The position numbers and the translations under genes were made by a program. A stretch of 64,000 bases of DNA from an uncultured Desulfosoma sp. GTDB taxonomy: Bacteria > Desulfobacterota > Syntrophobacteria > Syntrophobacterales > DSM-9756. The stretch's first letter is position 1, and each line of letters starts with the position of its first letter. The notes under the pieces are model-generated. The model saw nothing but the letters and a program-made list of their open reading frames with translations, ran no database searches and was not told the DNA's origin. The stretch lies in assembly GCA_937960435.1 (NCBI GenBank), contig CALGPN010000037.1, positions 1 through 64,000 on the forward strand, given 5' to 3'. Below, in pieces: positions 11,157-15,919 of the stretch.

Positions 11157-12116
11157 ATGGTCTTTCGTACTGCGGGGATTGAAGTGGCACCGTGGGTGCC
11201 ACCGTTGGTCGCCTTCGTCATTTCTTTTTTCACGTCCATGGGAGGGGTTTCCGGGGCGTTTCTCCTGCTGCCTTTTCAAATGTCGTTTCTCGGCTATACG
11301 CACCCTTCGGTCAGCGCCACCAACCAGCTTTTTAATATCGTCGCCATTCCCAGTGGGGTCTATCGCTATTGGAAGGAAGGCCGGATGGTCTGGCCCTTGA
11401 CCTGGGTCGTGGTCATCGGCACGCTGCCGGGCGTCCTTATTGGCGCCGTCGTCCGGGTGGCCTATCTGCCGAACCCGAAGAATTTTAAGCTTTTTGCCGC
11501 CGCCGTGTTGCTCTACATCGGCCTGAGGATGGTGCAGGATCTGGTCAAAGCAAACACCGGGACCCCGTCGAAAGCTGATGCGGAAAAGAGGTTCCAGGAA
11601 ATGGTACGCCGCCACCGGGCCATGGCCTCCCAATCCGGCGGGCAATCCCTTCAGCCGCTGCCGTCGGTGAAAGTGACCCATTTCAATACCCGCCGGCTCG
11701 GTTACACGTTTTATGAAGAATCCTACGATGTGCCGTTTTGGGGGATCTTCGCCCTGGCCTTCATCGTGGGCATTGTAGGCGGCATTTACGGCATCGGCGG
11801 CGGGGCGATCATCGCGCCTTTCTTTGTCACCTTTTTCAAACTCCCGGTGTACACGGTAGCCGGAGCAGCCCTCATGGGCACCTTTGTCACCTCCGTGGCC
11901 GGCGTGGCCTTCTATCAAGCCCTGGCCCCCTTTTACCCCACCATGTCCGTGGCCCCGGACTGGCTCCTCGGCGTCCTTTTCGGCGTCGGCGGGATGGCGG
12001 GCATGTATCTGGGCGCACGATGCCAAAAATACGTTCCGGCCAAAGCCATCAAATGGATGTTGGCCGCCATCATCGTCTTCACGGCCGTAAAATACATCGT
12101 AGGCTTTTTCCAATGA
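11157..12116 (+). CDS. Sulfite exporter TauE/SafE (TSUP) family permease
   Basis: Polytopic, SATNQLFNIVAIPSGVYRYWKEGR and GIVGGIYGIGGGAIIAPF motifs; SD aaaggagg before ATG 11157. Confidence 0.88.
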   Translation: MVFRTAGIEVAPWVPPLVAFVISFFTSMGGVSGAFLLLPFQMSFLGYTHPSVSATNQLFNIVAIPSGVYRYWKEGRMVWPLTWVVVIGTLPGVLIGAVVRVAYLPNPKNFKLFAAAVLLYIGLRMVQDLVKANTGTPSKADAEKRFQEMVRRHRAMASQSGGQSLQPLPSVKVTHFNTRRLGYTFYEESYDVPFWGIFALAFIVGIVGGIYGIGGGAIIAPFFVTFFKLPVYTVAGAALMGTFVTSVAGVAFYQALAPFYPTMSVAPDWLLGVLFGVGGMAGMYLGARCQKYVPAKAIKWMLAAIIVFTAVKYIVGFFQ

Positions 12117-12165: not shown

Positions 12166-12194
12166 TTGACATAGGGAACAGTTCTTTGTATATG
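12166..12194 (+). promoter_or_regulatory. Sigma70-type promoter
   Basis: TTGACA (12166-12171), 17-bp spacer, TATATG (12189-12194). Confidence 0.7.
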
Positions 12195-12206
12195 ACCTCC
12201 ACATGA

Positions 12207-12270
12207 TCAAGGCAATGAAGTCTGCCTGAACCGCCCCTGCCCGAACGGCGGGGATGATGACTTCTCCACG
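12207..12270 (+). ncRNA. Fluoride (crcB-type) riboswitch aptamer
   Basis: GGC-AAUGAAGUCU-GCC-UGAAC-[hairpin CCCCuGCC/GGCGGGG]-AUGAUGACUUCUCCAC; P1 GGC/GCC, pseudoknot GAAGUC (12217-12222) with GACUUC (12259-12264); lines up with remembered T. petrophila and P. syringae fluoride aptamers. Confidence 0.83.
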
Positions 12271-12350
12271 GCGAGGGGTTGTCAAAAGGTGGCAACCGCC
12301 ATTCGGCGTGAGGTTCGCGTTCAGGCATGTCGCTGTTTTTCCTGACAAAG

Positions 12351-12380
12351 ACCCCACCCGCATGGCGGCTGGGGTTTTTT
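12351..12380 (+). terminator. Intrinsic terminator of the riboswitch leader
   Basis: ACCCCACCCGC-ATG-GCGGCTGGGGT (one mismatch) followed by a U tract (ggggtttttt). Confidence 0.8.
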
Positions 12381-12414
12381 GATTTGATGCCAACATCATC
12401 AGGAGGTCGCGGGG

Positions 12415-14244
12415 ATGCTGGAACGATATCGACAGATGCAGGCCCGGCTTCTGAAAGTCTTGGAAGACATCCGGAACCTGAAAAAAAATGATTCCGACGA
12501 TGTCTTCGTCGGCCAAGTGGACGAATTGGCGGAAAAAGTTCGCCAAAGTGCCTTTTACCTTGTGGTCCTCGGTGAATTCAAACGAGGCAAAAGCACCCTC
12601 GTCAACGCCATCCTTAAAGATAACATCCTCCCTACCGCCGTGGTGCCGCTCACATCCATCGTGACCATGATCCGCTACGGCCCCGAGGAAGAAATTCTCG
12701 TGCGGTTCAAAGACGGCAAAACCCAAACCATCGATCGACGTCATCTGGTCGACTATGTCACCGAAAGAGGCAACCCGGATAATGCCAAAGGCGTGAACCG
12801 CGTGGAAATCGCCTATCCGGCGGAAACCCTTCGCGGCGGCGTCCACCTCATCGACACACCGGGGGTGGGCTCGATTTTCGAGACGAACACGCAGGCCACA
12901 TACGACTTCTTGCCCAAAGTGGATGCGGCCCTCTTTCTCTTTACGGTGGATCCCCCCATCAGCCAATCGGAGTTGGCGTTTTTGCGCGACGTGCGCCAAT
13001 ATGTCAGCAAGATCTTTTTTGTCCAAAACAAGATCGACTACGTGGATCCCGAAGATCGTGAAGAGTCCCTGGAATTTTCCAAACAGGTGCTCAAGGGCGT
13101 CATCCAGGACGGGGAAATTCGAATCTTGCCCCTTTCCGCCAAGCTGGCCCTGGAAGGACGGCTCAAGGAAGACCGCGAGAAAATCGCCCAAAGCTACTTT
13201 CCTCAGCTGGAAGAAGTCCTGACGCACTTTCTTACCCAGGAAAAGGGCCGTGTGCTCCTTCAATCCGCCACCCAGTCGGCCCGAAAGATGTTGAATGATG
13301 TAGAGTTTTCCGTCCAGCTGGAGCAGAAAGCCATTGAGATGCCGCTTCAGGATCTTGAACAGAGAATCGCCCTCTTCCAGAAAGAACTTCAAAAGATTCG
13401 GAGGGACCGCGAAGAGAACAGCTATTATTTTGAAGCCGAAATCAAACGGATCATGGCGTGGCTGGACCGAGAACTGAAGCGCCTGCAAAAGGACCATTTG
13501 CCGGAACTCATGGAACAGCTGCGCCAAGAGGGGGAAAAGAACCAACATTTGCCCGTTTCCCGATATGTGGAAAAGATGGAGAGCGTGCTCAACGAAGGGA
13601 TCGTCCGCACCTTCGACGACTGGATCGTCAATGAGGAAAAGGCCCTGAACGAAGAATTCGCTCGGGTCTCCCGCCAATACTCGGACCGGACCAACCAAGT
13701 TATTGAACGCCTCATTCAGGCTTCCGCCAAACTTTTCGACATCCCCTTCGAAACCATTCAAACGGATGAGTGTTTGCGGGCCGACAGCCGGTTTTATTAT
13801 CTTTTGGGAGATCCTCCGCGATTTTTCGACATCGCGGGCGCAGTGGATTTCTTTTCCCGAAAACTCATGCCTACAAGTTTTTCTCAAAAAAGGGTTTTAA
13901 GCAACCTCATGAAAAAACTGCCGGAGCGGATCGATGCCAACTGCGGCCGGGTCCGTTCCGATTTCATGCGTCGTCTCCAAGAGAGCTTTCTCACTTTCCG
14001 ATGGAACTTGAATGCCAAGATCGACACTACGGCCCAGGGCATTCAAGACGCCCTGGAAAAGGCCGTGGCTATGCAAAAGGCCGGAGCGGTCGAAAGGGAT
14101 CAGAAGATCGCCTTGCTCAACCAAAAAATGCGGACCATCGCTGCCATCAAAGAGGAACTGCGTCAAATGGCGCAACAGATTTCCACAGGAGATGCGGAAG
14201 AAGCTCAAATGGGCATGATGTGCTCCAGCACCGTCCGGGTGTAA
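12415..14244 (+). CDS. Dynamin-family (bacterial dynamin-like) GTPase
   Basis: GEFKRGKSTLVNAIL (G1), LIDTPGVGS (G3), NKID (G4), long coiled-coil C-terminus; SD aggagg. Confidence 0.88.
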   Translation: MLERYRQMQARLLKVLEDIRNLKKNDSDDVFVGQVDELAEKVRQSAFYLVVLGEFKRGKSTLVNAILKDNILPTAVVPLTSIVTMIRYGPEEEILVRFKDGKTQTIDRRHLVDYVTERGNPDNAKGVNRVEIAYPAETLRGGVHLIDTPGVGSIFETNTQATYDFLPKVDAALFLFTVDPPISQSELAFLRDVRQYVSKIFFVQNKIDYVDPEDREESLEFSKQVLKGVIQDGEIRILPLSAKLALEGRLKEDREKIAQSYFPQLEEVLTHFLTQEKGRVLLQSATQSARKMLNDVEFSVQLEQKAIEMPLQDLEQRIALFQKELQKIRRDREENSYYFEAEIKRIMAWLDRELKRLQKDHLPELMEQLRQEGEKNQHLPVSRYVEKMESVLNEGIVRTFDDWIVNEEKALNEEFARVSRQYSDRTNQVIERLIQASAKLFDIPFETIQTDECLRADSRFYYLLGDPPRFFDIAGAVDFFSRKLMPTSFSQKRVLSNLMKKLPERIDANCGRVRSDFMRRLQESFLTFRWNLNAKIDTTAQGIQDALEKAVAMQKAGAVERDQKIALLNQKMRTIAAIKEELRQMAQQISTGDAEEAQMGMMCSSTVRV

Positions 14245-14434
14245 GGATTGGGTTCCATTGCCTCACCGCAACCTAAAGCGGTGGAGAAAAGAAAGGATTT
14301 TCATGGGTCTCTGTTGGGGTTCGCTTCGCTCACCCCAACCTACACGGGTAAAGTAAGGGAGGATTTTCGGAGCCTTAAGTTGGGGTTCGCTTCGCTCACC
14401 CAATCAACGCCAGTGAAGATAGGGGAGGATTTTT
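14245..14434 (+). repeat. Three tandem copies of a 66-bp unit (hairpin plus GGGAGGATTTT RBS-like motif)
   Basis: GGATTTT at 14295, 14361, 14427 and GTTGGGG-type hairpin start at 14247 (degenerate), 14313, 14379: constant 66-bp period. Confidence 0.85.
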
Positions 14435-15919
14435 ATGGCCATTAGTTTGGCTTTGATCATCGTCCTAGGGCTTGGCGCCGATTACGTTTTCAAAAAGCTG
14501 AAGCTGCCGGGGCTCGTGGGCATGCTGCTGGTAGGCATTTTGGTGGGACCCTATGTCTTGGGACTCATGCGCCCCGAGATGATGCAAGTATCCGCGGATT
14601 TTCGAAAAATCGCTCTGATCGTCATCCTCCTTCGTGCCGGCTTTGAACTGCATCGGGACACGCTCAACCGGGTCGGCCGCGCGGCCTTGACCATGAGCGC
14701 CGTGCCCGCCATTTTCGAAATTCTCGGCGTCATGCTGGTCGCCCCCAAATGGCTGGGAATAAGCCTTTTGGAAGCGGCCATCCTCGGCGCCATCTTAGGG
14801 GCCGTGTCCCCTGCCGTCGTCGTCCCCCTCATGATCGACTACATGGATCGTGGCCTGGGAACGAAAAAGGGGGTTCCCACCTTGATTCTCGGCGCGTCCT
14901 CGGTGGACGACGTTTTCGTCATCGTTCTTTTCACAATTTTCCTCGGCATGTACGGCGGCGGCAAGGTGAATATCTGGGCAAAGCTCGCCGAAATTCCCAT
15001 TTCCATCGTCCTGGGCATTCTTGTGGGAGCCATCCCCGGCTATCTTCTCTACAAACTTTTCGTAACTTATGATTGGAAACCGCCCAAAAGGACGCTTCTC
15101 GTCCTCGGGGTGTCCATTGTACTCACGTGGATCGAATCGGCCGTGGAACATTGGGTCCCGGTGGCAAGCCTGCTCGGGGTTATGGCCATCGGGTTCGTCA
15201 TCCTCGAAAAGGCCGAACCCATCGCCCACCTCATTTCTCAAAAGCTCAAAAAGCTCTGGGTCTTCGCCGAACTGCTCCTCTTCGTCCTCGTAGGGGCTCA
15301 GGTGAATATCCACGTGGCGTGGAAGGCGGGGCTTGCCGGCACCGCGGTCATTTTCGTCGGCCTCATCTTTCGCAGCATCGGCACGTGGGTCTCATTGTTG
15401 GGAACGCCGCTGAATTGGAAAGAAAAACTCTTTTGCGTCGTCGCCTACATTCCCAAGGCCACCGTCCAGGCGGCCATCGGCGCCGTGCCCATGGCCGCCG
15501 GCGTCGCCTCCGGTGAAGTCATCCTGGCCGTGGCCGTCTTGTCCATCATCCTCACCGCCCCTCTGGGCGCCATCGGGATCATACTTATAGGGGACAAATG
15601 CTTGGACAAAGGGGACGTAAGCCCCTATCGGTTCAAAGAACTGCGGGCCAAGTTGGATCTTCCACGCGTCGGCGAACGTGTGCGCAGCAAGCGCTATGGC
15701 ACCGTGTGGAAAATTATCGAAGAAAAAGAAACTTGGATCCCTGTCCCGGCACACTTAGGCGGATCGGTGTTTCCCGACGGCAAAATGCCGGCCATCGTCA
15801 TTCGCTTTTGGAAGGAAGAAAGCGCCAAGGGGCCGGGTACCGGAAAAACCATGACGTACCGCTACAGCCAGCTGGACCCTTCCTTCCAGGAGCATTGGGA
15901 AGTGCTCTACGACTGGTAG
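14435..15919 (+). CDS. Cation:proton antiporter (CPA family) with soluble C-terminal extension
   Basis: Polytopic N-terminal ~400 aa (GLVGMLLVGILVGPYVLGLM, LRAGFELHRD, LGAILGAVSPAVVVPLM), C-terminal ~85 aa soluble. Confidence 0.85.
   Translation: MAISLALIIVLGLGADYVFKKLKLPGLVGMLLVGILVGPYVLGLMRPEMMQVSADFRKIALIVILLRAGFELHRDTLNRVGRAALTMSAVPAIFEILGVMLVAPKWLGISLLEAAILGAILGAVSPAVVVPLMIDYMDRGLGTKKGVPTLILGASSVDDVFVIVLFTIFLGMYGGGKVNIWAKLAEIPISIVLGILVGAIPGYLLYKLFVTYDWKPPKRTLLVLGVSIVLTWIESAVEHWVPVASLLGVMAIGFVILEKAEPIAHLISQKLKKLWVFAELLLFVLVGAQVNIHVAWKAGLAGTAVIFVGLIFRSIGTWVSLLGTPLNWKEKLFCVVAYIPKATVQAAIGAVPMAAGVASGEVILAVAVLSIILTAPLGAIGIILIGDKCLDKGDVSPYRFKELRAKLDLPRVGERVRSKRYGTVWKIIEEKETWIPVPAHLGGSVFPDGKMPAIVIRFWKEESAKGPGTGKTMTYRYSQLDPSFQEHWEVLYDW

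Follow-up and report, generated by a model that had tools for sequence, protein, structure and literature searches.

A fluoride riboswitch of family RF01734 predicted to control a dynamin-like GTPase and an NHA2-like antiporter in an uncultured Desulfosoma sp.

In the 64,000-nucleotide stretch of DNA analysed here (the window), a fluoride riboswitch at the start of an operon transcript very probably switches on, probably through a relay from pseudoknot to switch hairpin to antiterminator, the genes of a BDLP-type dynamin-like GTPase and an NHA2-like cation:proton antiporter, which would answer the acid and membrane stress caused by HF. The RNA family is known, whereas its downstream target, a dynamin-like GTPase together with an antiporter, is provisionally new.

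The riboswitch aptamer

Judged by its sequence, the RNA is a fluoride riboswitch of the known family RF01734, and fluoride binding is predicted. Rfam cmscan gave an RF01734 match at 12202-12273 on the forward strand with 40.1 bits against a gathering threshold of 34 (E = 1.2e-7 for 64 kb). No other Rfam family reached its gathering threshold in the window, and a whole-genome search returned this match as the single one in the 3.0-Mb genome. The first-pass annotation had proposed a fluoride (crcB-type) riboswitch at this place; the above-threshold score and the covariation in orthologous leaders, which is strong in P1, P3 and the pseudoknot, confirm it. The elements of the aptamer are as follows.

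12202-12273, forward strand: fluoride riboswitch aptamer (RF01734), from cmscan and covariation in 45 leaders
12211-12214 with 12223-12226, forward strand: helix P1, GGCA/UGCC, paired in 100% of cells (45 leaders), with compensatory change in 3 of 4 pairs
12217-12222 with 12259-12264, forward strand: pseudoknot of 6 bp, GAAGUC/GACUUC, paired in 100% of cells (45 leaders), with compensatory change in 4 of 6 pairs
12235-12241 with 12247-12253, forward strand: P3 hairpin, from the Rfam alignment, RNAfold and compensatory changes in relatives

The P1 strands GGC (12211-12213) and GCC (12224-12226) and both pseudoknot strands lie where they had been located before. The earlier span of 12207-12270 also placed the elements correctly, although the string quoted for it starts at 12209, and the three P1 pairs described there are present, but a fourth pair, A12214-U12223, had been overlooked; here A-U replaces, by compensatory change, the G-C normally found.

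Covariation was assessed by aligning the window aptamer with 44 riboswitches that precede genes homologous to that of the GTPase; these relatives were picked by the protein that follows and not by their RNA. In this alignment, which leans somewhat towards the model because the aptamer positions were then set with RF01734, P1, pseudoknot and P3 are paired in 97.4% of cells as compared to 87.3% after shuffling and 34-56% after sliding. Compensatory changes occur in 11 of the 14 pairs, and both-sided changes were observed in 81 cells versus 22.5 in shuffles.

The core residues A12215, U12216 and G12217, the stretch U12255-G-A12257-U-G and U12265 are all present. The A-U-G after P1, the U-G-A-U-G before the 3' strand of the pseudoknot and the linchpin A and U form the conserved core around the ion site in the crystal structure. 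The linchpin U, which an A usually follows (UAC), is followed by a C both in the window and in a sibling genome.

Leader organization and proposed switching mechanism

The leader around the aptamer contains the following signals.

12166-12171 and 12189-12194, forward strand: sigma-70-like promoter, TTGACA and TATATG with a 17-nt spacer, identified by eye
12255-12266 with 12273-12284, forward strand: switch hairpin H1, UGAUGACUUCUC with GAGGGGUUGUCA (RNAfold -12.9 kcal/mol, shuffle p 0.004)
12275-12284 with 12343-12355, forward strand: proposed antiterminator, GGGGUUGUCA with UGACAAAGACCCC (duplex -14.6 kcal/mol)
12350-12376, running to 12382, forward strand: intrinsic terminator stem followed by U6 (RNAfold -17.5 kcal/mol, sequence)
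12401-12406, forward strand: Shine-Dalgarno sequence AGGAGG, 8 nt before the ATG (sequence)

A consensus-like promoter had been claimed upstream of the aptamer. It is visible by eye, and most of the relatives sampled likewise have TTGACA ahead of the aptamer, although a stricter consensus scan of the plus strand gave no match, since it demands a final T in the -10 element and TATATG has a G there. The terminator claimed downstream was found as well; it is evident by eye and on folding, and a consensus scan of the plus strand missed it on account of one mismatch in the stem. With every base pair preserved, A-U-G and U-G-A-U-G-A-C of the core kept, promoter, terminator and Shine-Dalgarno sequence undamaged, and the same leader and gene order retained in the sibling genome, it is very unlikely that the aptamer is a decayed or non-functional relic, even if 40.1 bits is a modest score and window and sibling share the unusual C after the linchpin U.

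In the published mechanism the 3' strand of the pseudoknot doubles as the terminator base, and the terminator is kept from forming when fluoride is bound (PMC11077080). The window shares with the canonical RF01734 riboswitch the aptamer layout, the pseudoknot, the conserved core and the location at the beginning of a terminator-bearing 5' leader, but this overlap is absent: the pseudoknot strand at 12259-12264 is separate from the terminator stem at 12350-12376, and the hairpin that does overlap the strand has no U-run after it. Because the terminator begins 86 nt past the pseudoknot 3' strand, the picture of direct competition does not apply unchanged. The hairpin H1 is built in part from the aptamer core and the 3' strand of the pseudoknot and thus excludes the aptamer; equivalent hairpins occur in the leaders of 18 relatives, and H1 would be the switching element. 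Without fluoride, H1 would capture the pseudoknot strand, the downstream terminator would form and transcription would stop. With the Mg-fluoride complex bound, the pseudoknot would be locked and H1 could not form; its 3' arm, left free, would pair with the terminator 5' arm, and read-through by RNA polymerase would follow.

Automatic classification of 64 GTPase-linked leaders, which carries some errors, several distant terminators having been mis-called, assigned 38 to a direct type, in which the terminator hairpin overlaps the pseudoknot strand, and 18 to a relay-like type, in which an overlapping hairpin without U-run is followed by a second terminator further downstream. By its overlapping hairpin, distant terminator and antiterminator candidate the window is of the relay-like type; its H1 was taken from RNAfold, the automatic hairpin finder having missed it (G-U pairs). 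Within the 18 relay-like leaders the complementarity between the H1 3' arm and the terminator arm is -17.5 kcal/mol within leaders versus -16.0 kcal/mol between them (permutation p 0.005) and -12.2 kcal/mol for shuffled sequences. The window antiterminator duplex gives p 0.08 against shuffles, which is weak by itself, and it is therefore proposed here as a candidate, not claimed as shown; full-leader thermodynamic folds (RNAfold) favour other long-range pairings. In view of these two results, it is from the relatives that we infer the relay, for which the sequences give moderate support in that group and weak support in the window alone. The window leader probably switches in this way.

The main alternative is a genuine aptamer under canonical control by direct overlap, or under translational control by exposure of the ribosome site, with the distant terminator being incidental. 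We regard this as unlikely. The overlapping terminator hairpin of the 38 direct leaders is the published design (PMC11077080) and the antiterminator duplex of the window alone is not significant, but window and sibling have no U-run after the hairpin that overlaps the pseudoknot and do have a strong terminator downstream, and in the closest relatives an H1 is retained with complementarity between its 3' arm and the 5' arm of the terminator. Translational control is further disfavoured by the location of the Shine-Dalgarno sequence about 25 nt past the terminator, with no complementary aptamer strand seen by eye. In the direct and relay types alike, fluoride would turn expression on, a direction that we assign by analogy with the upregulation of downstream genes by the fluoride riboswitch (PMC11139923). 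The relay platform, if confirmed, would mean that a fluoride aptamer can be connected to a terminator with which it has no contact.

The downstream operon and its proteins

A gene for a TauE-family transporter ends at 12116, upstream of the leader. The aptamer precedes a GTPase-antiporter operon, and the same gene families follow other RF01734 matches, as is to be expected of the leader of fluoride-response genes.

12415-14244, forward strand: BDLP-type dynamin-like GTPase, 609 amino acids (Pfam Dynamin_N, 8.8e-25)
14435-15919, forward strand: CPA2/NHA2-like cation:proton antiporter, 494 amino acids, DD motif at 158-159 (Pfam PF00999, 7.4e-48)
15617-15919, forward strand: C-terminal domain of the antiporter, about 100 amino acids (tblastn)

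The two genes are separated by a gap of 190 nt (14245-14434). Since this gap carries two hairpin repeats, co-transcription in the window is deduced from the sibling genome, where a single riboswitch precedes both genes and only 4 nt separate them, which supports their assignment to one operon. The short palindromic repeat GGGTTCGCTKCGCTCACCC is REP-like and occurs seven times in the window (2386, 8951, 9027, 14317, 14383, 41068 and 61439; 0 expected), twice of these between the GTPase and antiporter genes. In the gap it alternates with near-repeats of the antiporter ribosome-site region (AGGATTTTC / GGGAGGATTTTC / GGGGAGGATTTTTATGG).

The GTPase has an intact P-loop (GEFKRGKST), DTPG and NKID, and the motifs GxFKRGKST, DTPG and NK-D are invariant in the alignment of the family, so that G1 to G4 are all accounted for. 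Its profile matches the BDLP of Nostoc (PDB 2j68) with E 7.5e-39. The AlphaFold model (mean pLDDT 75) has BDLP 2j69 as its best Foldseek match with a TM-score of 0.76 on the query, which suggests a common whole-length fold including the long helical neck and trunk characteristic of BDLP; residues 446-486, at the expected tip, where a membrane-inserting paddle would lie, are modelled with low confidence. Sequence identity to the Nostoc protein is 18% in the structural alignment, and the window GTPase differs from it by its position under a fluoride riboswitch; its membrane activity is a prediction. DynA from Bacillus subtilis, IniA, the Campylobacter DLP pair, LeoA and CrfC belong to the same superfamily and give weak profile matches, but the window protein scores far under the NCBIfam equivalog cut-offs. 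Whereas DynA is a fusion, the window GTPase is a single-unit protein.

For the antiporter the best profile match is with structures of NHA2 (SLC9B2; PDB 7b4l, E 1.7e-47). It shares the Na_H_Exchanger domain and the DD motif with NHA2/SLC9B2 and CPA2 antiporters such as NapA, with D158 and D159 invariant in its alignment, and differs from them by the extra C-terminal domain.

Recurrence of the riboswitch upstream of dynamin-like GTPases

RF01734 was found in 33 of 40 genomes of the order, with 72 matches. The first gene after these riboswitches is most commonly this GTPase (22 matches), followed by the window-type antiporter (14, of which 3 consist of the C-terminal domain only), CrcB (7), other Na/H antiporters (7) and enolase (5); NuoH/HyfC-like, MutS-like and other genes make up the remainder. 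The targets already known for fluoride riboswitches include exporters, antiporters, enolase, MutS and formate-lyase-type genes (PMC11139923, PMC2864571). The gene classes listed in PMC11139923 do not include a dynamin-like GTPase, which is the first gene in the window.

When GTPase loci were gathered by protein sequence alone, with one genome per GTDB species, 68 of 80 had an RF01734 match at or above the gathering threshold upstream on the same strand, 60 of these within 400 nt. Near-threshold matches at three more loci bring this to 71 of 80, against a chance expectation of about 0.0006 per locus, an enrichment estimate that assumes independence and is illustrative only. The linked loci come from Desulfobacterota, Nitrospirota, Bacillota (Pelotomaculum, Desulfotruncus), KSB1 and Atribacteria. 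That the aptamer is a chance resemblance and no riboswitch at all has a negligible probability: what can be said for it is the generic caution that short motifs may recur by chance, whereas the E value over the window is 1.2e-7 and the homologous loci, with the same element upstream of 68 of them, refute it computationally.

In a tree of 115 members of the GTPase family, riboswitch linkage is spread over the family, apart from one clade of family-f2 paralogues. Whole-genome searches in the order found no RF01734 match beside these f2 paralogues, which serve as a negative control, and dynamins of this type are thus not always fluoride-regulated. The dynamin family behaves as a recurrent member of the fluoride regulon. 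Our literature search found no report linking the fluoride riboswitch with a dynamin; the novelty of the link is provisional because the 2012 primary paper (Baker et al.) lies outside that search. Where the fluoride riboswitch stands before a gene, it can be taken as a dependable sign of a response to fluoride. Its repeated occurrence thus gives this dynamin family a physiological signal of a kind missing for most bacterial dynamins, and makes the family's role testable.

Several further arrangements were observed among these loci. A divergent dynamin subfamily (G029:C189, G013:C36:4768, G014:C304:11152, G009:C1:3492125 and G016:C89), several members of which have about 900 amino acids, is in part encoded by the second gene after enolase in riboswitch operons. 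Pairs of fluoride riboswitches stand back to back on opposite strands, each before one of two divergent genes, at G011:C31:39824/40086, G033:C81:6983/7135, G016:C322:1501/1703 and G013:C36:14959/15440, and likewise at L113, L114, L122, L126 and L145. In the Nitrospirota loci L130, L146, L153, L158, L162 and L167, at least two consecutive genes (Na/H antiporter, UspA, GTPase) each have their own fluoride riboswitch, on one strand and about 1.7-2.2 kb apart. Within about 60 nt downstream of the aptamer at L107:53-115 there is a second aptamer-like copy (GGUGAUGGGGUUCACC...GCUGAUAACUCCUAC), and the two may form a tandem fluoride riboswitch. Finally, the fluoride riboswitch at G010:C17:78263-78331 is followed by a GTPase remnant of about 72 codons and then by an MFS transporter gene, apparently a case of GTPase decay in which the switch was taken over by another gene.

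Physiological role

The most likely physiology is an answer to HF acid and membrane stress by the antiporter and the dynamin, the two products of the switched-on genes. HF would enter as a weak acid, acidify the cell and stress the membrane; the antiporter would restore ion and pH balance and the dynamin may stabilise or repair the membrane. Among the target classes of fluoride riboswitches, Na+/H+ antiporters rank second in frequency after exporters, and they counter the acidification of the cytoplasm by incoming HF (PMC11139923). A role in membrane surveillance has been described for the bacterial dynamin DynA of B. subtilis (PMC8844932). On the strength of these two precedents, a function in membrane maintenance is the leading guess for the window dynamin, by analogy.

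GDP-AlFx locks dynamin-type GTPases. The GTPase might accordingly be induced as an enzyme poisoned by fluoride (AlF4- or MgF3- with GDP), of which the cell makes more, as for enolase. Enolase is a published riboswitch target explained in this manner (PMC11139923), and enolase genes belong to the same riboswitch regulon here, but the explanation gives no reason why this GTPase should be singled out over essential GTPases, and a near paralogue in the same genomes has no riboswitch link; poisoning therefore appears an improbable basis for the induction as compared to a part in the HF stress response.

Missing exporters and the antiporter

Fluc/CrcB and CLC-F exporters are the usual first genes after fluoride riboswitches and are found in this regulatory position in sister genomes, whereas neither was detected in the window genome, in which the riboswitch precedes GTPase and antiporter. 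A search for CrcB (PF02537) gave no match in this genome (G000, 95% complete) or in the 7 others that belong to the family. The signature of CLC-F fluoride exporters is GREGT/V (PMC11139923). The single CLC of the genome has GREGP instead and was rejected as a fluoride exporter; the other CLCs of the family have GREGP or GSEGP where readable, the diagnostic residues being masked or unreadable at one locus (L216/L228).

CrcB and the window-type antiporter hardly occur together. In the order, CrcB accompanies the antiporter in 0 of 14 genomes versus 17 of 26 genomes otherwise, and in the class in 0 of 26 versus 17 of 31. In a sample from the phylum, limited to genomes with a completeness of 90% or more, the corresponding figures are 1 of 19 versus 123 of 239 (Fisher 5e-5). 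The exclusion is confounded by phylogeny; inside family f2 alone the figures are 0 of 3 versus 17 of 24 (p 0.04). Because of the one exception in the phylum sample (G209), the exclusion is a strong tendency and not a rule. It is what one would expect if the antiporter had replaced the exporter, in a direct or an indirect way, but is no proof of this. This near mutual exclusion suggests how bacteria without a known fluoride exporter may cope.

One could go further and propose that in these lineages the riboswitch-controlled NHA2-like antiporter, which has a C-terminal domain of its own, stands in for the missing exporters, by fluoride/proton exchange or indirectly, and that the dynamin, likewise under the riboswitch, is a dedicated fluoride-tolerance protein, the two forming an exporter-independent fluoride defence; this stronger proposal we consider unlikely. 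The C-terminal domain itself has no Pfam family at E 1 and no PDB match. Its pattern is PRVGxxVRSKKYGTxWRV... with an NWEVV-like end, and it is also encoded by stand-alone genes of about 90 codons, either directly under fluoride riboswitches or right after the riboswitch-linked GTPase (L040:11273-11539, L041:8760-8518, L058:7899-7654, L122, L126, L127, L145 and L039).
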